A stretch of DNA of 46,485 nucleotides. Source: a virus. How positions within the stretch are numbered: position 1 is the stretch's first letter; each line of letters starts with the position of its first letter. The notes under the pieces were generated by a model. It was not told the DNA's origin. It did no database searches and saw only the letters and a list, made by a program, of their open reading frames with translations. The position numbers were made by a program, and so were the translations under genes. Location: positions 1 to 46,485 of IMG/VR virus record IMGVR_UViG_3300032086_005219. One strand, given 5' to 3'. Positions 25,229-39,888 of the stretch are shown here, one piece after another.

Positions 25229-26194
25229 CTATTTTATTGTAATCTTCGGCCCGATGTAACATATAGCCATAGTTTTAGAATCTGCGCTAATAGGAAACTC
25301 AAAATGAATACGGTAATATCTGCTTGAAATCTTTGCATGCCAAGGACAAAATATCTTATTTTTTTTATTCCTAGGATCTTTGAAAGTCATTTCATCTTTA
25401 AATTTACCCTTGTTAGTTTTTGATTCATCTGTTATTTTCGCTCCATCACCTAAAAAATATTCCTTTAAAATATCATGACCTTCTTTTGTATATTCGCCAT
25501 TGTCATTTCGACTATCCACAAGATCATTTAATATTTTCATTATGTTAATAACCTGAGAACAAATAACCAAGCTAAATGGATGAGGACTTAAAAAATTTAT
25601 AATATCATCACTAATAGATAAACTAGGGTATATTTCATTTATCGTGTCAATCATACACTGCCAAGATTTTGGCATACCTCTCTTAGACTCAATATCTAAA
25701 ACAAGATTATCAACATCCCAAAAATTATCAATTTGATAAGCAATAACTTCAAGCTCATTTGTAATCTGATTAACAATCAAACGAGTTGTATTACATGGCC
25801 AATCAGGAGTTTCCAAACTATATAATGCAGAGTAATTGCCTAATATTTTCTGTCTAACAGCTTCTCCTGCACCTAGATTAGTCACAACTTTATCAAACAG
25901 TTCAAAGTCATCATTTTCAATATTTTGACGTATATCATCTAAGAAAGGACCTTTTTTATCAATCCATTCAAGCACTAATTTTTTAAGCACAGGATCACGT
26001 TGAGCATTAACAACATCTCGAACAGTTAAGTCATCAACTACTTTTAAAGATGGTAACAACCTAGAACAATAAAGTTTATCTTTAACTGCAGCATTTTGAC
26101 TTCTTAATTTTAATAGACCCTTTAGGTGATACAAAAAAGAATCTTGATTATCAAATTGTCCCGTAAATGATAACTCATTTATAAACCATGCCAT
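25229..26194 (-). CDS. Unknown protein of the methyltransferase/DUF262/AAA cassette, 321 aa
   Basis: I do not recognise a named domain. The first 200 residues are helical and polar. The C-terminal 60 residues stand out: CPWHAKISSRYYRIHFEFPI, then a closing AICYIGPKITIK. A W-H-x-K ... R-I-H-F ... Y-x-G-P-K-I-T layout looks like a compact catalytic or RNA/DNA-binding module with conserved His, Lys and Arg. Its position, five bases after the AAA ATPase stop, suggests that the ATPase and this protein act together, with this one as the possible effector. A+T-rich codon use sets it apart from the phage structural genes. It is the last gene of the operon. Confidence 0.78.
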   Translation of the reverse strand: MAWFINELSFTGQFDNQDSFLYHLKGLLKLRSQNAAVKDKLYCSRLLPSLKVVDDLTVRDVVNAQRDPVLKKLVLEWIDKKGPFLDDIRQNIENDDFELFDKVVTNLGAGEAVRQKILGNYSALYSLETPDWPCNTTRLIVNQITNELEVIAYQIDNFWDVDNLVLDIESKRGMPKSWQCMIDTINEIYPSLSISDDIINFLSPHPFSLVICSQVINIMKILNDLVDSRNDNGEYTKEGHDILKEYFLGDGAKITDESKTNKGKFKDEMTFKDPRNKKNKIFCPWHAKISSRYYRIHFEFPISADSKTMAICYIGPKITIK

Positions 26195-26199
26195 TTATA

Positions 26200-27339
26200 T
26201 TACCATCCAACTAATTCTGACATATCTTTCTCTGCTTGATCAAAAAAACCTTCTGGCCATTCACTTAAGTTGCCATTTTCATCTACAAACGGAGATATTA
26301 TATCTGAGTGTGTAGAGTTAAAAAAATGTATACTTATTTCTTTTCGATCAATCAATGTTCGATACACTGCTAACCGAATGCCATTGAGCATATGATCACT
26401 ATGTGTTTCTATTATAATTTGAACTCCAGCACTACTCATAATAGATAAAAATTCACCCATTTTTGATTGTCCTTGAGGATGCAAATGGGCTTCAGGGCTA
26501 TCAATAATGATTATATCTCCAGGTTTAGCTAATAGCGCTGAAACTACTATAGGAAAAGCATAAGATAATCCATAACCAATATTACTCGGGGTTCTCCACT
26601 CACTAACTTTATTATTTCTAAACATAAGTTTAACAAAATTAGTATTATCTATGGATAATGTGTCAGCCTCTGCATTAGGGAAAATATCACCAAACCAAGC
26701 ATTAAATTGACGTCTAAAATTAGAAGCCACTTCATCAGGGTGCATTTTATCTTGATGCACCATATCATCTTTGAATACTTCAAAAAGCCAAGGAGCAAAT
26801 TCTCCTTTAGTACCTACATGATGGCTAGTACTACTGTCTGAAATTGGATACAAACTATCTAACTCTAGTCGTGATATTCCCAAATAATCAATATTAGAAA
26901 TTGACTTATATAATAAATTAGGAGAGTCTAATTGTGATAACTTTGAAAATAGTTGAGAAGTACTAAAAAAATCCTCTTTATTATCGCCAGTCTCAACAGT
27001 CAGGCTTTTTATATCAATAGTACGATCTGAATTTCTATTATCTAAGCCTAGTGCCAATTTTATACAGGCTGACTCATCCTCAACATCTATTCTTATGATA
27101 TTTGTATCAGAATCCTCATTTAGAACATCACCAGGAGTCCCTAAACGGATCGATTTTCCATTTAGAGTCACTTTACCATCAGGTCTATTTTCTCTGAAAT
27201 TTTGAGAAAGTAATAACAAAGACTGTAAAGTCGATGTTTTTCCTGATGCATTAAAACCTGTCAATGCTGTCAAGTTTGAAAATGGCAGGCTTAATTTTTT
27301 GAAACATTTAAAATTTTCTAGTTCTAATCTTTTAATCAT
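26200..27339 (-). CDS. AAA/ABC-type ATPase, DUF3696-like
   Basis: The 379-aa protein is an ABC/SMC-like ATPase of the OLD-related kind. Walker A is GFNASGKT (28-35), the signature-like SNIGYGLSYAFPIV lies at 252-265, Walker B IIIIDSPEAHLHP at 276-287 and the H-loop-type ETHSDHMLNGIR at 311-322. The end WPEGFFDQAEKDMSELV is the pattern of DUF3696. No Toprim nuclease domain is attached, unlike Gabija GajA. Such stand-alone ATPases are common in anti-phage operons, where they sense or control an effector. It overlaps the DUF262 gene by 4 bp and is followed after 5 bp by the unknown protein. Confidence 0.87.
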   Translation of the reverse strand: MIKRLELENFKCFKKLSLPFSNLTALTGFNASGKTSTLQSLLLLSQNFRENRPDGKVTLNGKSIRLGTPGDVLNEDSDTNIIRIDVEDESACIKLALGLDNRNSDRTIDIKSLTVETGDNKEDFFSTSQLFSKLSQLDSPNLLYKSISNIDYLGISRLELDSLYPISDSSTSHHVGTKGEFAPWLFEVFKDDMVHQDKMHPDEVASNFRRQFNAWFGDIFPNAEADTLSIDNTNFVKLMFRNNKVSEWRTPSNIGYGLSYAFPIVVSALLAKPGDIIIIDSPEAHLHPQGQSKMGEFLSIMSSAGVQIIIETHSDHMLNGIRLAVYRTLIDRKEISIHFFNSTHSDIISPFVDENGNLSEWPEGFFDQAEKDMSELVGW

Positions 27340-28955
27340 CTAAATTTATCCAAACATTCTAAAATTTTAGAAAATCGTACTATGACTTTTTTTCTACTAT
27401 TTGTACCTATAGAAATAGAATCGATAAAATCTTCATCAAAAAGAAGACCTTCCAAACTGTTTTTTAATTCTTGTTTATCTATAGCGTTCAAATTAACAGT
27501 AGATAAAGCAAAGCTAAAGACATCAAATAATGAAATATTGATTACTGATCGCGCAGTATTATTTCCCGCACCAAATAAAGACTTTCTAAATGCATGCCCA
27601 GAAAAAAGTTCATAATTACTTTCCATTGCCAAGATAAACTTATTTTCAAGAATTTCTATATTATCATTACTCATCTCATTTATGGCTTTTAAAGCTCGAG
27701 CTAGAAAGTCATCCATATCACCTTTATAAGACCTATACTCAAATAGAGAAAATGCTAAAAATCTATTAATAATTTCTCTATCTCTCATAGTCTTAGTTTC
27801 TAAGCTGCCTCCTGTAGCCACTTTAAATATTTTAAGTTCAGATAGTCTCTTGACCAACTGTGTTCCTCTTCCATTATATAGACAATTTCTCATCTGCTGA
27901 CGAGTTAATGGAGTCCCCCCGTTAACACGGTCAAAAATATCCAATTTAGCTCTTTCTGGTGCTTTTTCATCTAAGATATATAATATCAGCTGCGTATCTT
28001 CTATCCTTTCTTGGAGCTTTATAGGTAGTTCACTAAATTTTTTTCCATTTAAACTAAGCCCTTTTAAGGAAAATTCATCATTTAAATATCGAGTAAAAGT
28101 GGTTAACCTTTGTAAACCATCAACAACAACAATCTTACCTTCTTGATCCTCTGCAACATAAAATACAGGCAAAGGAATACGCATTAGACAAGACTCTATT
28201 AATTTGGACTGCATAATTGGCGTCCATACAAAATCTCGTTGGAAATCTGGGTCCAATTTAAAACGATTATTTTTTATTCGTTCTACTACGTTATTAACAG
28301 TTCGTTGTTCTGTTCTTATTAAGACAGTGTTTAACGGGTACTCATCCCCCCAGCCAAAACTATGAGCCATTTCCTCACTTTCAGTTTCATACCCTTCTAA
28401 TTCATCACCTTCAGATTCAATTAAGCTTAATAAATCATTAGCATTACGAGCTAAATCAAGTCTAAAGCCTCGATACAACGTGTTAACAGCATTAATCAGA
28501 GACTGCGTATCTTGTTTATTGTCACCTTTAACATACTGAATAGCATTGTTTCTCGAACTTTGGAGACCAATTACAGGGTACTGGCTAAACTCTCTATAAA
28601 ATTTAGGGGTAATCTCTAAAAAGTCACTTGAATTCAAACTACTTGGGAAAATACTTAAAATTTCTATCTCAATCGTTGCTTCAGACTGAAAACTAAACCT
28701 TCCTGAAATAGATATAACTTTGCCTAATGCTCGAATACCTTTTTTCCAACTAGTAGGTATTCCTTTGCTATTATCAGAACCAAGATATATAAAACAATAA
28801 ACCACTTCCTTATCATATTTGTCGACAATAGCCTGCTCTACTTGGCAACATTTAAAGATAAGTTTCTTCGGTTTAGATATAGCACCGACGTAAGTATCAA
28901 GCATTTTTATGTCAACTACACTGTCTTTACCCAATCTAATAACAACAAAGTTCAT
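27336..28955 (-). CDS. DUF262 (ParB/Srx-like) protein with extra N-terminal domain, 539 aa
   Basis: Residues about 220-390 form a DUF262 domain: FKLDPDFQRDFVWTPIMQSK, then VVVDGLQRLTTFTRYL with the DGxQR nucleotide-binding motif at 279-283, and IFDRVNGGTPLTRQQMRNCL. DUF262 occurs in GmrSD/BrxU-type enzymes that restrict modified DNA and in SspE. The DUF1524 HNH nuclease that normally follows is absent; the C-terminal 150 residues are helical and unrecognised. The first 190 residues form another unrecognised domain rich in beta segments. It lies 14 bp after the methyltransferase, so it may read the methylation state made by its neighbour, which is inference. Confidence 0.87.
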   Translation of the reverse strand: MNFVVIRLGKDSVVDIKMLDTYVGAISKPKKLIFKCCQVEQAIVDKYDKEVVYCFIYLGSDNSKGIPTSWKKGIRALGKVISISGRFSFQSEATIEIEILSIFPSSLNSSDFLEITPKFYREFSQYPVIGLQSSRNNAIQYVKGDNKQDTQSLINAVNTLYRGFRLDLARNANDLLSLIESEGDELEGYETESEEMAHSFGWGDEYPLNTVLIRTEQRTVNNVVERIKNNRFKLDPDFQRDFVWTPIMQSKLIESCLMRIPLPVFYVAEDQEGKIVVVDGLQRLTTFTRYLNDEFSLKGLSLNGKKFSELPIKLQERIEDTQLILYILDEKAPERAKLDIFDRVNGGTPLTRQQMRNCLYNGRGTQLVKRLSELKIFKVATGGSLETKTMRDREIINRFLAFSLFEYRSYKGDMDDFLARALKAINEMSNDNIEILENKFILAMESNYELFSGHAFRKSLFGAGNNTARSVINISLFDVFSFALSTVNLNAIDKQELKNSLEGLLFDEDFIDSISIGTNSRKKVIVRFSKILECLDKFR

Positions 28956-28969
28956 ATGTAATCCTAATA

Positions 28970-30256
28970 TTATGCTACTTTCTTACGCTGAGCTAAAACG
29001 ACTAGCGCTTCATAAAGTGGGCCAAATAACTTTCTATTTTGACTCTTTACTCTTCGCAATATCCCTTCTGCTGCATTAGCACTAATGAAATACTTCTCAT
29101 TAATGTCCAAATTTTTATCAATAACATCAATAAGTTTAGAATGAATAATCTCTTGAGGGTACTCAGTTGCTTTAAAATCAATACAAACATTGTTGAATGC
29201 AAGACCGCCAGACATCCATTTCAACTTATGAGATTTATCTTCAGGATCCAAAACAAGGTCAAGTAGTTCTTGCTCTCTAAGGCTTTGTAGTACTGAACCA
29301 TATTCCTCTTTAATCTTTCCTATCATTTCATTTTCGGAAAAGTAGCTATTATCTACTCGAAGTAACTCACCTTTCAATCGCTTAGCTATCCAGGCGACAA
29401 CAGGGACAGAAACCGCATTTCCTAATGCATGATATCTATCAGTATCAAAATCGTTAGTAGAATGATTTTCAGTAACAGTCCAATTAGTAGGGAAACCTTG
29501 AATGCCTTCACATTCTAACGGTGTCAGTCTCCTTACTGCGTTTGGATATGAAACATAAGTACGACTCCAGTCAGTCCCAGTATGTCGACCAGATGTTGCA
29601 GCTAAACAATAAGCTATCTGTGCAACTTTGACATTAGAAGTTTGACACTCACTAACATCAAGAAAAGAACGTCTTAAATTCTTTGGCTTAGTCCCAACAT
29701 TTTTCTCATACAACGTAGAAAAAGCCTTTAATGGGTCACCTTTAAACGCACAGATGAAAACTCGAGGTCTTGATTGAGGAGCTCCAAAAAAACGACTATT
29801 TACTACTCTCCAAGAAACTGCATAACCAATACTCGTCAACTTCTCAAGAATAACCCTAAAATCTTGGCCGTTATGTGAACTTAATAATCCAACTACATTT
29901 TCAATTATTAAAACTTGAGGTCTATGGGCATCAATCAAATCAAAAAAAGGATAGAAAAGACCTGAATTACGGCCACGTAATCCATCCCGCCCCTTTGAAC
30001 CTCTAGCAACGGATACATCCTGACATGGAAAACCTCCACACCATATTTGTGCCTTAGGAATGTCACCTGCATTTAAGCTAGTTATATCGTCACATAAAGG
30101 AACATCGGGCCAATGTTTTTTTAGAACTCGTTGGCAGAAGCTATTCACCTCACACTGAAATTTCGGGTTAAACCCTTGTTTCTCTAACGCTAAATCAAAT
30201 CCACCGATACCAGCAAAAAAAGAATTGAAGTTAAGAGCAGAAACCTTCTGTACCAT
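28970..30256 (-). CDS. C5-cytosine DNA methyltransferase with C-terminal extension
   Basis: All key m5C methyltransferase motifs are present: motif I NSFFAGIGGFDLA, motif IV GGFPCQDVS with the catalytic Cys near residue 78, motif VI ENVVGL, motif VIII QSRPRVFICAF, and motif X YHALGNAVSVPVVAWI. The target recognition region between VIII and X is short. About 120 residues after motif X (from YFSENEMIG on) are not part of the usual fold and may dock a partner. I prefer the ATG at 30256, ten codons before motif I; an in-frame ATG at 30331 would add 25 hydrophobic residues. It is the first gene of the four-gene A+T-rich operon and should protect host DNA or mark it. Confidence 0.93.
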   Translation of the reverse strand: MVQKVSALNFNSFFAGIGGFDLALEKQGFNPKFQCEVNSFCQRVLKKHWPDVPLCDDITSLNAGDIPKAQIWCGGFPCQDVSVARGSKGRDGLRGRNSGLFYPFFDLIDAHRPQVLIIENVVGLLSSHNGQDFRVILEKLTSIGYAVSWRVVNSRFFGAPQSRPRVFICAFKGDPLKAFSTLYEKNVGTKPKNLRRSFLDVSECQTSNVKVAQIAYCLAATSGRHTGTDWSRTYVSYPNAVRRLTPLECEGIQGFPTNWTVTENHSTNDFDTDRYHALGNAVSVPVVAWIAKRLKGELLRVDNSYFSENEMIGKIKEEYGSVLQSLREQELLDLVLDPEDKSHKLKWMSGGLAFNNVCIDFKATEYPQEIIHSKLIDVIDKNLDINEKYFISANAAEGILRRVKSQNRKLFGPLYEALVVLAQRKKVA

Positions 30257-30600
30257 TCGAACACAACCACAAGTTAAAGAGATAAAAGCGATCTGGAAGT
30301 ATACTTGGTAATCGAGAGAATAGAAACTCATTGACTATAATGTCCCCAATCCTTAACACCAACTCCCCCTAGAAACCAGTGTTGTCCCTGCTTACAAGAT
30401 TTCATCAATACATAATCGCCAATAGTTAAAGATCAGAATCTGTAAAGAAAAATTAAAGAATCACCACCTTTCTGGTTATAATTCAAACCTAGATTTAGTA
30501 CATCTTATTTATTCTGTCATGCTCAAGGAATAATTAGCTAAATTCCACTAATAAAATAAAAAATGATAATTATAAAAGCAAATTTTGATGAAATTTATCC
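30257..30600. other. Intergenic region between holin and methyltransferase genes
   Basis: No gene seen. The sequence is very A+T-rich and lies just after the lysis block, so it should hold the promoter of the methyltransferase operon. TTGAATTATAACC-like elements on the minus strand near 30472-30488 are possible promoter parts, not certain. Nothing palindromic with a T-run was found. Confidence 0.35.
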
Positions 30601-32484: not shown

Positions 32485-32665
32485 GTATCTGGGATTAGAC
32501 AAATTACTTGAAACCTTAAACGCTTATTATGTTTTCTAACTATTAAACTTTCCTGTTGCATAACTAAATATCAACATCTTACTACCAATTATTGCTATAT
32601 ATTGATAAAATGCGGCAGAACGCCATAAAGTTGGCAATTAAGATAGACAATAACGTATCCAAACT

Positions 32666-33694
32666 ATGAAAGTGATTATTTTATCAGGTGCCGGACTTTC
32701 TGTCCCGTCAGGTCTACCTGCGTATGAAGACATTAAAGATACACCTGAATACCAAGCATTCCAAAGTGCTGAACCTAGTGAATTATTGGAGCTTGTAAAA
32801 AAAATCGGTCATAAGTATGAACAATTTACACCGAATCGAGCGCACTACGAGTGCATGTATCTCGAAACATACTGTCAATCACTAGGTGTTGAGTTTCAGC
32901 ATTACACTTTAAATCTAGATGACCTAATTGAGAAAGCTGGAGGGCATGCTGTACATCTTCATGGCTGTGTAAACGAGCCAGACAGCATTGTTCAATGCAA
33001 AGATGTTCCTTGCGTAGACCTTTTCAATCTTGAGTGGGAAGCTAACGACCTCTTAATCGTACTTGGTGTTAGCAACAGTGGATTTCCTCTAGCTGCAATA
33101 GAGGCAAATGCTCTAGCGTCTGGAGCTAAATTCTTAAACTACAACATTATTTCGAATAGTGAAACTAGCACCCAAACTTCAATCGGTGATGTTTCAGAAA
33201 CATTCAAGTTCTTAGATCATCGGAACTTACCACCTATCGAGTTAACAGAAGTTGATTTAGGCTTTACCGTCTATCAAATAGAATGCAATATCATGGGTAA
33301 CGAGTATACTGTTTATCTAACTCCGTCGACTGAAGGTGACTTTAGTGATGGTAGGCTTGAAGATACAGAAGCTCGGATAGGAATGAAGCTCAACGATAAT
33401 TGTTTTGAGATCAAGTTTGACTTAAAGTTGAACATCGACAATGATACACTCTTTGAGCAACCAGAAACATCGATCACTAGACGACAATTGAACCTTTTAG
33501 GACGAGTCATCGCAGCCCTCATACTGTCGCATTCTAGAAGTAAAAATGTGACCGTTTACACAGCTTCTGCTGTGGATGAAAGACTTGTATTGTTCTATAA
33601 TTTGCTTGCAAGGAAGTATGCAGATCAACTAGAATATGAATCATGGTGTAGTTTTGGCACTGAAGGAATAAATTATGCGTTCAAAAAAAAATGA
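32666..33694 (+). CDS. SIR2-like domain protein, 342 aa
   Basis: Residues 1-190 form a SIR2-type NAD-binding domain. The motifs are SGAGLSVPSGLPAY (7-20; the family has GAGxSxxSGIPxF), TLNLDDLIEKAGG (81-93; family TQNID), and HLHG (97-100) with the catalytic-type His99. LIVLGVSNSGFPLAAIEANA (about 129-148) matches the GTS strand region. The zinc-binding Cys quartet of sirtuin deacetylases is not evident, so NAD hydrolysis rather than deacetylation is likely. Residues 200-342 are a second, unrecognised alpha/beta domain. SIR2 domains are the NADase part of several anti-phage systems. It is oriented against the lysis genes with its own upstream region, and the next small ORF overlaps its end. 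The absence of a known partner such as HerA, Ago or a macro-like protein is notable. Confidence 0.85.
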   Translation: MKVIILSGAGLSVPSGLPAYEDIKDTPEYQAFQSAEPSELLELVKKIGHKYEQFTPNRAHYECMYLETYCQSLGVEFQHYTLNLDDLIEKAGGHAVHLHGCVNEPDSIVQCKDVPCVDLFNLEWEANDLLIVLGVSNSGFPLAAIEANALASGAKFLNYNIISNSETSTQTSIGDVSETFKFLDHRNLPPIELTEVDLGFTVYQIECNIMGNEYTVYLTPSTEGDFSDGRLEDTEARIGMKLNDNCFEIKFDLKLNIDNDTLFEQPETSITRRQLNLLGRVIAALILSHSRSKNVTVYTASAVDERLVLFYNLLARKYADQLEYESWCSFGTEGINYAFKKK

Positions 33695-33800
33695 AGTAAC
33701 AAACAAGCGTAAGCTTGAAGCAATGCGTAAGTTGTCGCAAGCTTGTAATGCTGCTATTAAAGCTGGTAAAGCAAAGAAAACCATCCTTGCTCCGCAATAA
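33675..33800 (+). CDS. Small basic protein overlapping the SIR2 gene end, 41 aa
   Basis: The frame MRSKKNEVTNKRKLEAMRKL... runs 41 codons to TAA at 33798-33800. It starts 20 bp before the SIR2 stop, in another frame, with GAAGGA 7 bases upstream of the ATG. Twelve of 41 residues are Lys or Arg, and residues 9-35 should make one basic helix. A terminator follows 24 bases later, so the two genes form a compact unit. It could bind nucleic acid or neutralise/regulate the SIR2 protein; its function is unknown. It is too short to be certain without expression data. Confidence 0.62.
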   Translation: MRSKKNEVTNKRKLEAMRKLSQACNAAIKAGKAKKTILAPQ

Positions 33801-33823
33801 GCTACTACCTTTATCTGATTCAG

Positions 33824-33850
33824 AAAGCCGACCATTGAGTCGGTTTTTTT
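33824..33850 (+). terminator. Rho-independent terminator of the SIR2 unit
   Basis: AAAGCCGAC-CATTGA-GTCGGTTT forms a stem with five GC-rich pairs extended by A-T pairs, followed by a run of seven T's. It lies 24 bases after the small basic ORF. Confidence 0.9.
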
Positions 33851-34305: not shown

Positions 34306-35220
34306 ATGCCATCTAAAAATTACAATTTTGACTTTTATGAATGTTCTACATTCAATTCAAGTGCCAATGCACTTCCAAGAACTTCATTTGAAATATTAAA
34401 TAGAATGCTCACAAGGTTCGGACAGGGTGATAGTAGCGTCAAACAAATTGGCTCTAATAGCTATGAGTTAAGACAAATAGAATCAACTGACTATGGTTTT
34501 AAAGGTATCATTGGCAAGCATCGAGAAAATGACCTTCCACATGCAGCTGTAATCGGCGGTGATGAAAGAGAGATATCTCTTGCTGCAAACGAAAACTTAT
34601 TGGAAAAAGCATATTTTTCTTATCACTCTGATTACTCTGTTTTGATCATTCAACGTAACCACCTGTGTATTAGCAATAATAACATGGGTAAATACTTAAC
34701 AGAATCCGCTTATGTAACTACACTGAACCCTGTAATTGAGCCCGCGGATCTTCAATGGTTATTGAATAACCATGTACAAATTCGTACAGCTGAATTTGCA
34801 ATTGCTCGACCAACAAACCCTGATTTATTTAATGACATTGAGCACGATTTTAACAACTCGATAATTTCCACATTAAACGGAACGGGAACTGCGCAATTAA
34901 ACTTAACTTTGAGAGGCAATGCTAGATCAGATGTTGCTGAGGAACGATACCTTGCATCAACAATGAAAGGAGCTTTGCGTGAACTACAAACCAAGTTTGA
35001 TGTTAAAAAGTGTAAATTACTTTTAGAGAATGATGAAACACTTATAACACATCCAGTAGACTTAGTTTCTGATCGTTTATTCTATAATAAACAGATTGAA
35101 GTGGAAGGTAGATATCCTCCTGCTTTTGAAATGTGGGCAGCTCTTGATGAAGCTAGAACAGAAAAACAAGGTGAATTAGCAAATTATTTCGGTGAATTAA
35201 ATCAGGAGCGATTGGCTTAA
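34306..35220 (+). CDS. Unknown soluble protein, first gene of the HEPN operon, 304 aa
   Basis: I cannot name the family with confidence; the general look (NYNFDFYECSTF start, a central strand-rich part with YSVLIIQRNHLCISNNNMG, then DLQWLLNNHVQIRTAEFAIA) recalls DUF6731-type prophage proteins from memory only. Residues 150-230 contain mixed alpha/beta segments and a conserved-looking NLTLRGNARSDVAEERYLAS. There is no membrane segment or HTH. It has a GAGGG ribosome site before the ATG and is followed after 4 bp by the membrane protein gene, so the two are translated together. It may be the sensor of a three-gene anti-phage or toxin system; this is inference from context. Confidence 0.72.
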   Translation: MPSKNYNFDFYECSTFNSSANALPRTSFEILNRMLTRFGQGDSSVKQIGSNSYELRQIESTDYGFKGIIGKHRENDLPHAAVIGGDEREISLAANENLLEKAYFSYHSDYSVLIIQRNHLCISNNNMGKYLTESAYVTTLNPVIEPADLQWLLNNHVQIRTAEFAIARPTNPDLFNDIEHDFNNSIISTLNGTGTAQLNLTLRGNARSDVAEERYLASTMKGALRELQTKFDVKKCKLLLENDETLITHPVDLVSDRLFYNKQIEVEGRYPPAFEMWAALDEARTEKQGELANYFGELNQERLA

Positions 35221-35224
35221 TGCT

Positions 35225-35686
35225 ATGGATAAATTAAAGCGTTATTATTACTTATTGGTCATATTAATTACTCTGTTTATTTGCTGGAGTGCATGGCCTG
35301 TTGTATCCAAATTTACATCAAAAGAAATACAGCCTATTGCTTCAGCAATATCAACCTTGTCTGGCATACTTTTTGGTTTTGTAATGGCTTCAATTTCTCT
35401 TTTCGCTTCGGCAAAAGATAACAAATTAGTTAAAAATACAACTCTAACTGGTTATTTACCTAAGCTTGTAAATCGACTTCATATAACTATGGGGTTGCTG
35501 TTATTCGTTTGTTTTACCTTTTTATTAGTCTTGTTTATTCCTGATTCATTAACTTTCACTATAAGCAACACAAGTTATAAATATTCAGTCGTTGTAGTAA
35601 TGTTTGGCATATTTTTAGGTTTAAATTCATTTATTCAATTTTACTTGTCTTGGAACGGATTTAAAGACTTCTCTAAACATATGTAG
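35225..35686 (+). CDS. Four-TM membrane protein of the HEPN operon, 153 aa
   Basis: Four hydrophobic segments are visible: 9-27 (LLVILITLFICWSAWPVV), 40-62 (AISTLSGILFGFVMASISLF), 88-107 (TMGLLLFVCFTFLLVLFI) and 121-142 (SVVVVMFGIFLGLNSFIQFY). A basic loop (AKDNKLVKNTTLTGYLPKLV) lies between the second and third. The 5-base link to the upstream gene shows an operon. Small four-TM proteins are common partners in anti-phage systems such as Kiwa, where KwaA is of this kind, but I see no sequence reason to call it KwaA. It would place the system at the inner membrane. Confidence 0.78.
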   Translation: MDKLKRYYYLLVILITLFICWSAWPVVSKFTSKEIQPIASAISTLSGILFGFVMASISLFASAKDNKLVKNTTLTGYLPKLVNRLHITMGLLLFVCFTFLLVLFIPDSLTFTISNTSYKYSVVVVMFGIFLGLNSFIQFYLSWNGFKDFSKHM

Positions 35687-35745
35687 CAATACAAGACAAA
35701 AGACTGTTAACAGGCCGTAGGGCTTAAATGAATCAGGAGAGATAA

Positions 35746-37131
35746 ATGAGTTTTGAAGTGTCAATAAAAAAGCTGTTTCTGAATATTGAAAAGGCGCTTT
35801 CTGGAAATCATGATGATAACTCAGTTCCAGATTTTACAACAACAAATTGCGGGAAGCAGATCTTATTTAATAAAGAATCAAAATTATCAATTCTTGACAT
35901 ATTTGATCTACTCAATTTAAACGAAAAAGACTTTGAAAATAAAATTGGAAAAGATGTACTTTTGGGGCTGATAAGACAAAATATTGCAGAGTTGTTTGTA
36001 AGGTTTCGTGGCCAAGATATTTGCCATAAACAGTTGAAAAAAGAACTTAAAGCACAATTATTCTCTGATATTGAAGATAGACAGTTAGAATATACTCATC
36101 ATTTCCCAGCTTCAAGTTTATTTATACTATATGCGAATAGCCGAGGTGAGTTCACTCTAGGTCCAGTAAGAATACAATCTCGTCTTGATTGGTTAGATAG
36201 CGTAGATTTTCATCACCAATTGATTGAAAATCACGCTAATGAAAAGGAGAAAAATAGACGCTGGAAATCTGATATGCGAGAAATATTGACAAACAAAAAT
36301 AGTGATGTTGATTGTGGATTTTTGACTAATAGTCTCCATAATGCCATAGAAAAAAGTTGGTGCCTTGTTTCAATATCTATAAATGGGTATGAATATAGTG
36401 CATCTAAAAAATATGCAGAAATCATAGCCAAGTCAGCACTTGATTCGATTTCCCTTGTACTTGGTGATAGTTCTTATTTTTTTCAACAGGTACTCTACAG
36501 TCAAGCACTTCCTCCTATCTCAACTTCATCAATCGTTAGCCATGGCGGATATTTGGATCTGCCAGGAATGGAGCTAGGAAAACAAATTCCTATTATTGAA
36601 CCAAAGCAAGTTAATAAGATGATTGACCATTCAAAGAACTTCGTAAGTCATATTGAATTAGCATTACATGATGCTGTTAATGTTGTTGAAGGAACCCATA
36701 CTCCTTTATATCGACGTTGGTTTACAGCTTTAGACTGGTATGCAGAGGGTTGTAGGGAAAATAATGATTCTATTGCGCTAGCAAAGATAGCTACTTCACT
36801 AGATGTTTTGTCCAACGGTGGAAAGTTTGGTGGGATTTTAGATATGGTGAGTGATATTCTTCAGGTGAAAGATGTACATAGCCAGATGACATTTAAAAAT
36901 AGAGAGTATTCATTGAATGAAGTGGTCAAAGAAATATATGACAATGGAAGATCAAAAATTCTACATGGTAACCAAATCGATCGTATGAAATCTCATTGTA
37001 TGATAAGAGAATTAGCAGAAATAATAACTCGTAATGTACTTATTCATGCAGTTGAACTTATCGATGCATACAAAGGAAAAGACAAAGATAACGCCTTTAA
37101 AAATATAAGATCAAAGCCAAAAGGTATTTAA
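35746..37131 (+). CDS. HEPN-domain protein (Apea-like), 461 aa
   Basis: The C-terminal part (about 310-450) is an Apea-like HEPN domain. LYRRWFTALDWYAEGCRENN and IALAKIATSLDVLSNGG form the first helices, and YDNGRSKILHGNQ carries the R-x4-H motif of HEPN ribonucleases (Arg402, His407), followed by MIRELAEIITRNVLIHAVEL. The N-terminal 300 residues are unrecognised; they include a helical part (FENKIGKDVLLGLIRQNIAE) and a mixed part. HEPN proteins with this motif usually cut RNA and are toxins or effectors of defence systems. An AGGAG motif lies 6 bases before the ATG; a 59-bp gap separates it from the membrane protein, so it can be expressed with it. Codon use is A+T-rich. It is the most likely effector of this operon. 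Confidence 0.83.
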   Translation: MSFEVSIKKLFLNIEKALSGNHDDNSVPDFTTTNCGKQILFNKESKLSILDIFDLLNLNEKDFENKIGKDVLLGLIRQNIAELFVRFRGQDICHKQLKKELKAQLFSDIEDRQLEYTHHFPASSLFILYANSRGEFTLGPVRIQSRLDWLDSVDFHHQLIENHANEKEKNRRWKSDMREILTNKNSDVDCGFLTNSLHNAIEKSWCLVSISINGYEYSASKKYAEIIAKSALDSISLVLGDSSYFFQQVLYSQALPPISTSSIVSHGGYLDLPGMELGKQIPIIEPKQVNKMIDHSKNFVSHIELALHDAVNVVEGTHTPLYRRWFTALDWYAEGCRENNDSIALAKIATSLDVLSNGGKFGGILDMVSDILQVKDVHSQMTFKNREYSLNEVVKEIYDNGRSKILHGNQIDRMKSHCMIRELAEIITRNVLIHAVELIDAYKGKDKDNAFKNIRSKPKGI

Positions 37132-37405: not shown

Positions 37406-37901
37406 ATGAACTACAAAACACTATATGGTAAAGAACTAAGCAATCCGAGTACGAATTTTTTTATCTTTGAAACTAAAGGAAGCGGCGTAAAGCATGATGA
37501 TGTAGAGTATGACAATGAAGCAGCTACCGAAGCTCTTCAGGATATCCAAAACGAAAACTACCATGTCGATGACCAAAAAAGCGAAGCTCCACGTCGTTCG
37601 AAGCAGAGTGTATTTTCAAATAAAGTAAAGAATAACTATGGGAATACTTGCGCTATGTGCGGTATTAAAACCAAAGTCCTATTAATCGGTTCGCATATTA
37701 TCCCGTGGGCCACAAGGAAAGACATTCGGCTTGACCCTTCGAATAGTTATTTCTAATGAAGTAAATACTGATCCAACGCTGAAAGCTATTACTGATCTTA
37801 TTAAAGAAGCCAAGCTTAGTAAGCCAAAAAAATCCCCTCCGAAAGAAGAGTATTTAAAACACCACCGGGATATCGAATTTGAAAAGTTTTTAAAAGACTA
37901 A
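37406..37901 (+). pseudogene. HNH nuclease gene with internal deletion (HNH_2 type)
   Basis: The first 112 codons are an HNH_2-type protein: the linker, then FSNKVKNNYGNTCAMCGIKT, LLIGSHIIPWATRKDIRLDP with the first His pair. At RLDPSN the frame breaks into stop (37754-37756). From the next frame, RIVISNEVNTDPTLKAITDL and on to a stop at 37899-37901 matches the usual C-terminal end of such proteins. About 60-80 codons with the second Asn/His of the motif are missing. The gene has a normal start but the product would lack the catalytic helix. It could still make a truncated protein of 116 aa. Confidence 0.77.
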
Positions 37902-38160: not shown

Positions 38161-39888
38161 TTATAACTTAAATTTACCAAGGCGACTTTTGTTCAATGGA
38201 TTTTCTTTACCAATTTCCGATAAAGCTTTTTTAGTGTTCTCCATTAACAAGTCACTACTACCAGCAAGCATTAAACATGCACGAATTTTATGAGTTAATT
38301 CTTCGCCTTTAAACGTTTTAAATAATGCTTTAAGGTCATCTGAGCTTAACTTTTCAAGCACTTTAACTTCTGACTGATTATATGAGCTTTGCTCGCTTCT
38401 ACGTTGAAGTATCTCATTTGGTGTATCTTCTGTTTGATTTGAGTCATAATAACCTTGAACTTTCGATTCAAAATTAGAGTCTTTCACTCCAAAATGATTA
38501 ATATTAAAATCATTTAGATTTAGCTTTTTTATATTTAATTTGTTCTGCTCGATATATAAATCAGTTAACTCCTCAGCTAATCCATCATTGCCAAGCTCTC
38601 TAATCAGTTTTACTCCTTCACTATATCGTGAAGCCGGTAGATTTTTAGCTGCACTTCGCAACCCTTCGTTCATTGCATTTATTACTTCTTCGACGTTAGT
38701 ATCGAAAGAGTTATGAAATACTTTCCATCCGTAATTATACTTTTCCTCTGCTTTCCTGATTTCAATATCTGTTTGGTCTTTGTCGCAAATTTCTTTGAGT
38801 TTTTCGTTATCTACAAAGCCTTGTTCAATACTAGAGATCAAAATAACGGATAAAGGATGCATACTTTGGTAATTATAACTATTAAGCGTATTTTCCCAGC
38901 CTTTTTCTTTCTTTTGCTCCTCAGTCATTTTCGCTTCGTCCGTTTCAAATTCATCATCAGAAAGGTCAAATATTTCTGAATTAAAGTTCTGATTGGTTAT
39001 TTTCTTAATAAACTTTAGGTCTGGAATATTCTTTTCATCCGCACTGTGACAATAATGGCTCCAACATAGAATAATGATCGTTTGGATAATTTGACCTTTT
39101 ATCTTCTCATCATATGAGGTTGCTACACTAAGAGCGGTTTCTATATGGTTGTAGATTTTCTTTAGCACACGAATATTTCGGATATCTAATCGTAAACAAA
39201 CATCTTTAACTTGTTTATATTTATCTATATTGTCATTTTTCATCGCGATATTAAAACAATGTTCTGCACTTGGTTCATAATGCAATTGCTTGTCAATTAC
39301 CTTCTCTTTGTATAATTGGTATTCTTTTAAATCATGACTATCTTCATTTAGCAAAATTACGATTTGACATTTTTTCTGCTCTTTGAGATATGAGACTAAG
39401 CCAAGGAAATCTCGAAGTGAAACTGACTTGCTATGTCGCTCAATGTCATCAAAACAAATAAGAGTTTTCGAAAGCATTGAAGTAGCAATTGATTCGTATA
39501 TTTTATCGACAGAAGAACCAAGACCTTTTAGTGCAAAGTTAGCTGCCACACTACTTAAGTCCTTGATAAAAACAGACGATTTTCTTCCATATCGCTTCCC
39601 TAATTCTTTATAATTTTTCTTCAAAGACTCAAGGTCATTTGATTCACCAATAAGATCTACATCGATAGAACTTTCAAATACAGAACGCTTAATATCATTG
39701 ACAGAGTTAATACCAAACAGACTTACATACGAGTATTTTTTCAACTCAATATCTTCTTTAAAATCTTGTATATAGGTGTTCCATGCATGAGTTTTACCAA
39801 TACCCCATCGGCCTTTTATTGCCATTACTTGTGGTTCATCATTTTCAACAAATCGTTTTACTTGCTCTTTAACCAATTCAATTGTCAT
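38161..39888 (-). CDS. KAP-like P-loop NTPase, 575 aa
   Basis: The N-terminus holds Walker A AIKGRWGIGKTHAW (GRWGIGKT at 26-33) and Walker B KTLICFDDIERHSKS (142-151). GxWGxGKT plus DDxER is the KAP family pattern, related to STAND ATPases. A sensor-like strand QIVILLNEDSHDLKEYQLYK follows at 174-193. The region 205-300 looks like a winged-helix/helical lid, and 330-575 is a charged helical tail with no catalytic domain I recognise. PifA and several anti-phage ATPases are of this type. It stands alone in the same direction as DnaB, with a 109-bp gap, in the cargo zone. A role in phage exclusion is inference. Confidence 0.83.
   Translation of the reverse strand: MTIELVKEQVKRFVENDEPQVMAIKGRWGIGKTHAWNTYIQDFKEDIELKKYSYVSLFGINSVNDIKRSVFESSIDVDLIGESNDLESLKKNYKELGKRYGRKSSVFIKDLSSVAANFALKGLGSSVDKIYESIATSMLSKTLICFDDIERHSKSVSLRDFLGLVSYLKEQKKCQIVILLNEDSHDLKEYQLYKEKVIDKQLHYEPSAEHCFNIAMKNDNIDKYKQVKDVCLRLDIRNIRVLKKIYNHIETALSVATSYDEKIKGQIIQTIIILCWSHYCHSADEKNIPDLKFIKKITNQNFNSEIFDLSDDEFETDEAKMTEEQKKEKGWENTLNSYNYQSMHPLSVILISSIEQGFVDNEKLKEICDKDQTDIEIRKAEEKYNYGWKVFHNSFDTNVEEVINAMNEGLRSAAKNLPASRYSEGVKLIRELGNDGLAEELTDLYIEQNKLNIKKLNLNDFNINHFGVKDSNFESKVQGYYDSNQTEDTPNEILQRRSEQSSYNQSEVKVLEKLSSDDLKALFKTFKGEELTHKIRACLMLAGSSDLLMENTKKALSEIGKENPLNKSRLGKFKL

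Follow-up and report, generated by a model that had tools for sequence, protein, structure and literature searches.

A phage-borne SIR2/GNAT-like fusion gene and its small overlapping partner: a candidate effector-antidote module

INTRODUCTION

Bacterial defence proteins such as ThsA (of Thoeris) and DSR1/DSR2 combine an N-terminal SIR2 domain that has no zinc site with a C-terminal domain that may regulate it. In DSR2 the catalytic pair is N133/H171 and the C-terminal domain is the sensor (PMC10973363). Other systems place the SIR2 effector in a two-gene unit, as do SIR2-HerA (Nezha) and the SIR2-APAZ short Argonaute systems. Type II toxin-antitoxin (TA) systems, including pairs with a GNAT toxin (TacAT type), are likewise composed of two small overlapping genes, with oppositely charged products, and are found on mobile elements. 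Antidotes are usually encoded first in such pairs, the second place being usual for the toxin.

Here we describe a locus that shares features with each of these. The window (the whole stretch of DNA that was analysed, 46,485 nucleotides of an IMG/VR virus record) encodes a protein that, like ThsA and DSR1/DSR2, has a zinc-less SIR2 domain at its N-terminus and another domain at its C-terminus, and whose gene is overlapped by that of a tiny basic protein. The apparently lone SIR2 gene turns out to be a member of a conserved two-gene family of phages, phage-plasmids, plasmids and chromosomes of Gammaproteobacteria. Neither this family nor the C-terminal partner domain appears to have been recognised before. 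Loci are designated by L numbers, and the large and small genes of each pair are termed gene 1 and gene 2.

RESULTS

The fusion gene

The larger gene of the window (32666..33694, plus strand), identified as an open reading frame and by homology, encodes a fusion protein of 342 aa with a pI of 4.7. About residues 1–185 (32666..33220, plus strand) make up a SIR2-like NAD-binding domain, of which residues 3–103 were aligned by phmmer to archaeal and bacterial sirtuins (E 2.4e-4), the aligned part including the GAGxS motif (GAGLS, residues 8–12), N83 and D85, and the HLHG motif with H99. The PHROG Sir2 profile matches the protein at 8e-16 and the Pfam SIR2 model at 22.1 bits (cut-off 24). The sirtuin CxxC...CxxC zinc module is absent: ∼25 residues lead from HG (residue 100) to the second Rossmann half (residue ∼125), and no cysteines or Cys pairs are conserved in this stretch among the six fused members aligned. 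A previous reading of this DNA from its letters alone (the sequence-only reading) had described the SIR2 motifs as complete and the zinc site as missing, and was right on both counts.

GAGLS, N83 and D85 are invariant in the alignment of all six SIR2-fused members. The catalytic His of the HG motif (H99) is found in the window, L004, L006 and L007, and is replaced by Tyr in L001 and L028. By analogy, N83 and H99 of the window are likely equivalents of the DSR2 catalytic pair. This exchange, in two of six SIR2 domains, means that not every member can depend on hydrolysis by SIR2; in L001 and L028 either hydrolysis would have been lost or SIR2 would serve as a sensor of NAD or ADP-ribose. The earlier judgement that NADase activity is likely was therefore stated too strongly. 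The window copy has the residues needed, and we term it a putative NADase. No PADLOC family was matched, the best hits being LmuA for the window protein (E 0.011) and Dsr1 for L028 (E 0.05). IMG/VR, scanned with the SIR2 protein and with the fused-protein alignment, yielded no relatives, so the SIR2-fused form appears to be rare in viral contigs.

The C-terminal domain (about residues 186–342; 33221..33691, plus strand), which stands alone elsewhere, has a predicted GNAT-like fold without the acetyl-CoA loop. An AF2 model of the SIR2-less domain from L024 (pLDDT 72.6, pTM 0.72) has the secondary-structure order E-E-E-H-E-H-H-E-H-E-E, and the C-terminal half of the window protein is modelled with the same order; the full-length window model has a pLDDT of 55 overall, with a SIR2 half too weak to use. 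Almost all of the best 50 PDB structure matches are GNATs (SpeG, RimL), with probabilities up to 1.0 but E values of at least 1e-3 and TM ∼0.4. Because the domain alignment shows no Q/RxxGxG/A acetyl-CoA loop where the long helix begins, we call the domain only GNAT-like, a prediction of fold that makes no claim of acetyltransferase activity. No Pfam, NCBIfam or PADLOC family covers it, a PDB sequence search was also empty, and PADLOC had no match for any of the GNAT-like proteins or small proteins. Weak BFVD matches include phage proteins without characterisation and, besides these, larger ones annotated as zeta-toxin or ADP-ribosyltransferase.

The small gene and its signals

Gene 2 of the window (33675..33800, plus strand) overlaps the fusion gene by 20 nt and encodes a 41-aa protein of pI 10.8 and net charge +10 with the conserved core K-x-E-A-M-R-K-L-x-x-A-x-x-x-A. 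Its Shine-Dalgarno (SD) sequence AAGGA (33663..33667, plus strand) lies within the C-terminal codons of the fusion gene, 7 nt before the ATG, in agreement with the sequence-only reading of a basic ORF that begins inside the SIR2 gene with a good ribosome site. No SD precedes the ATG of the SIR2 gene, and anti-SD duplex energies are –5.7 kcal/mol for the small gene versus +0.6 kcal/mol for the fusion gene. Upstream of the fusion gene a segment (32631..32665, plus strand; TTGGCAATT.AGATAGAC..AACGTA...AAACT) that is conserved with Enterovibrio L004 in a DNA alignment is a candidate promoter or leader. On the 3′ side of the small gene is an intrinsic terminator (33828..33850, plus strand), CCGAC-CATTGA-GTCGG followed by T7. 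This hairpin was not listed by a simple terminator scanner, which probably allowed the stem into the T tract. The terminator noted earlier thus exists, but it terminates both genes, not the small one alone.

Outside the overlap, the small genes of the window and L004 differ by 15 synonymous versus 3 nonsynonymous codon changes, with 18 of the 21 differences at codon position 3, and none of 20,000 random placements was equally conservative. Eight of nine further pairs were also conservative in the codon test (P < 0.01); the exception, L010/L011 (P = 0.12), has just 7 changed codons. A chance ORF is ruled out by the codon-position and random-placement tests and by conservation, and the codon patterns indicate that the small gene is real and under purifying selection.

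The window small protein has no Pfam match, and sequence searches found no solved relatives of it or of the C-terminal domain. Mimicry of a bS21 helix was considered and dropped: several small proteins align to bS21 residues 15–36 in the same register, with p 0.003–0.06 for some and none for that of the window, the hhalign probability is 25%, and the small-protein profile, run against ten genomes, did not return bS21 at E ≤ 10.

Distribution of the pair

The nearest relative in genome contigs, L004 of Enterovibrio coralii, is 78% identical and shares the 20-nt overlap, with a 41-aa product (88% identical) and a terminator of its own. An Alteromonas plasmid (L001, about 35% identity) has a 42-aa basic ORF with a 23-nt overlap, and a small ORF is also found beside the SIR2 gene in L006 (89%), L007 (45%) and L028 (43%). 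Lack of the small ORF beside related SIR2 genes had been set beforehand as refuting the pair; the ORF is present in five of five intact SIR2 relatives, down to about 35% identity.

When 297 Vibrionaceae genomes were searched with a profile, three proteins (L009–L011) matched in the C-terminal part only; they are SIR2-less, 173–188 aa long and each overlapped by a small basic ORF. Plasmid searches added loci from Yersinia, Serratia and Klebsiella, several of them on phage-plasmids, and IMG/VR contributed phage-plasmids (L024–L026) and 14 Pasteurellaceae-type prophages (L033–L046). Order-wide genomes yielded L028–L032, with 5 of 395 carrying the family, and searches at the class (369 genomes) and phylum (299 genomes) levels returned the query genome itself only. 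The distribution is patchy. SIR2-less GNAT-like domains are encoded by phage-plasmids, Pasteurellaceae prophages, plasmids and Vibrio chromosomes.

A second ORF lies at the 3′ end of every intact gene 1, both SIR2-fused (window, L001, L004, L006, L007, L028) and SIR2-less (L009–L011, L017–L022, L024–L026, L029–L032, L033–L045), starting in all these cases between –98 and +6 nt from the stop of the large gene. It encodes 29–30 aa in prophages, 41–64 aa in most others and 139 aa in L022; apart from this one lineage, its product is basic and of 29–64 aa throughout. Five of the SIR2-fused members form one clade, the placement of L001 not being firm. Of 19 loci, 17 have a terminator after gene 2; of 14, 13 have a stronger SD at gene 2 than at gene 1, some gene-1 starts being assumed. 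The large proteins are acidic (pI 4.6–6.2) and the small ones basic (pI 9.9–11.9), so the two genes have products of opposite charge as well as unequal ribosome sites. Distances of large and small proteins correlate (Mantel r 0.93–0.95), as expected for any linked genes.

Since the small ORF is kept beside SIR2-less C-terminal domains, these loci identify the C-terminal domain and the small protein together as the conserved unit, to which SIR2 is an optional N-terminal addition. The small ORF as partner of SIR2 itself is ruled out, the pair occurring without SIR2 at many loci. The idea of a two-part unit is thus retained, in that two genes form a self-contained whole, with its membership corrected: the small ORF goes with the GNAT-like domain.

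The small gene without the large one

The small-protein profile had 11 matches in the 297 Vibrionaceae genomes, 6 beside gene 1 and 5 alone, and 2 of the lone genes are visibly decayed. Prophage L046 has a frameshifted large gene and an intact small gene. No intact large gene without the small ORF was found among the recovered loci, the copies that lack it being truncated (L008, L023). The dependence is evidently one-sided, the large gene needing the small one and not the reverse. At the sequence level, then, the loci establish both genes as real and their pairing as conserved, with SIR2 optional and one-sided dependence.

The core motif is also encoded alone, among control genes, by a-gt.2/DUF5486 of T4-like phages and by a gene of phage KBNP1711. 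The a-gt.2 proteins (Pfam DUF5486; PHROG 2140, 17354) are short basic peptides like those of the module, with the common core K-x-E-A-M-R-x-x-K-x-x-Y-x-x-A-x-x-x-G-T; T4 a-gt.2 differs in standing alone next to gene 55, without a GNAT-like gene. Against DUF5486 (PF17588, gathering score 27 bits) the best module protein, from L010, scores 21.1 bits (E 2.8e-4), versus 40–130 bits for T4-like a-gt.2, and the small proteins match a DUF5486-type PHROG at 1e-5 to 3e-6, T4-like tblastn giving only 0.007–0.1. The match is weak and the suggested link of the small protein to DUF5486 rests on a short motif. A literature search for DUF5486 or a-gt.2 found no papers.

Two observations concern particular copies. 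The a-gt.2 motif gene lies just downstream of the gene 55 region in T4-like phages (L058–L062), and in phage PM2 it is annotated as a head maturation protease, probably wrongly. Two Vibrionaceae genomes (L081, L082) have in common a segment of 450 bp or more, almost identical between them, that contains an orphan small ORF and has unrelated flanks; by its sequence this segment moved recently and took with it only the antidote-like gene.

Genomic context

The viral record is of a lambda-like siphophage (HK97-type capsid, portal, TerL, tape measure, gpJ, DnaB) whose late genes are mainly on the minus strand, with the SIR2-like gene and 41-aa ORF on the plus strand. In phage-plasmids the unit is opposite in strand to the adjoining portal/head-protease genes, and the Haemophilus-type prophages have a LexA-like repressor in its vicinity. 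Chromosomal copies are solitary insertions: that of Enterovibrio interrupts qmcA, and others have trxB, a BCCT transporter or a TonB-type receptor as neighbours (genes named by eye from their sequences). In all these settings the unit behaves like cargo. In line with the sequence-only reading, which had noted no known SIR2 partner nearby, a HerA, Ago or Thoeris-type gene is absent beside it. The Enterovibrio coralii insertion (L004, 7712–10030; ∼2.3 kb), which splits the qmcA/SPFH gene, has a 19-bp direct repeat (TGTTTAGTATTT...AACT) near both ends; an integron or IS origin was rejected upon examination of the repeats, the ends being unconvincing.

Other genes of interest were seen in the window. 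Three on the minus strand (25229–28955) match PADLOC NsnC, NsnB and NsnA (E 2e-109, 1e-111, 3e-120), by these matches a complete Menshen-type defence system, and after them comes a C5 cytosine methyltransferase (28970–30331). Right after the SIR2 unit, genes for a DUF6731 protein, a small membrane protein (phrog_8552) and a 461-aa phrog_38039 protein (34306–37131, plus strand) have the appearance of a further cargo operon. Positions 37406–37756 hold an HNH-type fragment, and a 575-aa KAP-family P-loop NTPase (38161–39888, minus strand), possibly a further defence gene, adjoins the DnaB helicase gene. In genome G452 the SIR2-fused unit adjoins regular repeats resembling type I-F CRISPR (L028 1060–1305, also L050; translated SLPHRQLRK), and in G062 a 1190-aa gene beside such a unit (L049 8035–11607) has an N-terminus that by eye only is metallo-beta-lactamase-fold-like.

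DISCUSSION

We tentatively favour, with somewhat less than even confidence, the reading of this unit as a translationally coupled effector-antidote (TA or abortive-infection-like) module that phages carry as cargo. The effector would be the product of gene 1, its constant part being the GNAT-like domain; here its SIR2 domain would bind NAD, and the window copy has the residues needed for hydrolysis. The product of gene 2, a short basic helical peptide, would attach to the C-terminal domain of the acidic gene-1 protein and hold this effector inactive. Because its ribosome site and start codon lie inside gene 1, the peptide would accompany any translation of gene 1, and the stronger ribosome site would put it in excess. 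A competing phage that disturbs expression or the complex would free the effector, such that growth of the lysogen stops or NAD is lost. Where the peptide stands alone (T4-like a-gt.2/DUF5486, Vibrio orphans), it would act as an antidote for counter-defence or against addiction.

The one-sided dependence, the charges and the ribosome sites of the loci fit the pattern of an antidote toward its effector, and the pair has the two linked overlapping genes, one dependent on the other, that mark TA systems. Counted against the effector-antidote reading are the second place of the small gene and the Tyr-bearing SIR2 domains. The TA- or abortive-infection-like character first suggested for the locus is upheld by these sequence features; binding, inhibition, NAD loss and phage defence by the pair, and hence the role itself, we infer.

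The small protein could otherwise be a required co-factor that brings the effector to DNA, RNA or a phage component, this docking being the trigger for the SIR2 NADase or the GNAT-like domain in a two-subunit abortive-infection system. A basic helical peptide in obligate pairing with an intact gene 1 would suit this, as would the SIR2 plus C-terminal sensor architecture, shared with ThsA and DSR2 (PMC10973363). Lone copies in phages and Vibrio are however harder to explain when the enzyme is absent, and the excess predicted from the SD sequences is not needed for a subunit; we consider this explanation unlikely.

Modification of host RNA polymerase by phage GNATs has been described (PMC7824862), and this, together with the GNAT-like fold and the place of DUF5486 among T4 control genes adjoining gene 55, would accord with a host-takeover or lysogenic-conversion pair that is not phage-directed, for example one that modifies or binds RNA polymerase or the ribosome, as Rac and other phage GNATs are said to. 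Yet the acetyl-CoA loop is absent from the alignment and the unit is also found alone on chromosomes far from phage genes, which leaves such a pair quite improbable. We are similarly doubtful, and strongly so, of reversed roles, with the small basic peptide as toxin and the acidic GNAT-like or SIR2-GNAT-like protein as its antidote: the usual antitoxin-first order, the overlap and the opposite charges would be accounted for, but the small gene stands alone on chromosomes and outlives a broken gene 1, as a toxin should not, and its helix is not notably hydrophobic. An acetylation switch within one polypeptide, the GNAT-like domain acetylating lysines of the Lys-rich small protein and SIR2 removing the acetyl groups, has a precedent in a known GNAT toxin whose antitoxin is acetylated, and deacetylated by the sirtuin CobB (PMC5449658), but is highly improbable given a GNAT-like domain without the Q/RxxGxG/A loop, a SIR2 without the zinc module of deacylases, and most members having no SIR2.

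Returning to the effector-antidote reading, few known candidate antidotes would be as small as the gene-2 product, with SIR2 as an exchangeable part. Through the motif that it shares with T4 a-gt.2/DUF5486, one can ask directly whether unexplained small genes of lytic phages act as antidotes against effectors that prophages carry. A broader proposal, which we regard as possible though rather unlikely, is that of an undescribed toxin-antidote/abortive-infection family with a GNAT-like domain lacking the acetyl-CoA loop, an optional SIR2 and an antidote of 29–64 aa, in which the lone T4-like a-gt.2/DUF5486 copies are dedicated counter-defence proteins; if true, this would be a first function for the DUF5486 family.

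Set against the described systems, the window protein differs from ThsA and DSR1/DSR2 in that its C-terminal domain is GNAT-like, rather than SLOG or the long DSR helical domain, and in its size of only 342 aa, its pairing with a 41-aa overlapping gene and the lack of a PADLOC match to ThsA or DSR. Compared with SIR2-HerA and SIR2-APAZ, no HerA or APAZ/Ago gene adjoins and the partner is a tiny basic protein. Type II TA and TacAT pairs are alike also in one-sided dependence and, by prediction, a GNAT-like fold, whereas in the module the small gene comes second, not first, the acetyl-CoA loop is absent, and the partner is far smaller than RHH antitoxins. As far as established the module belongs to no named family, and from its sequence features we infer that it works like a TA or abortive-infection module.
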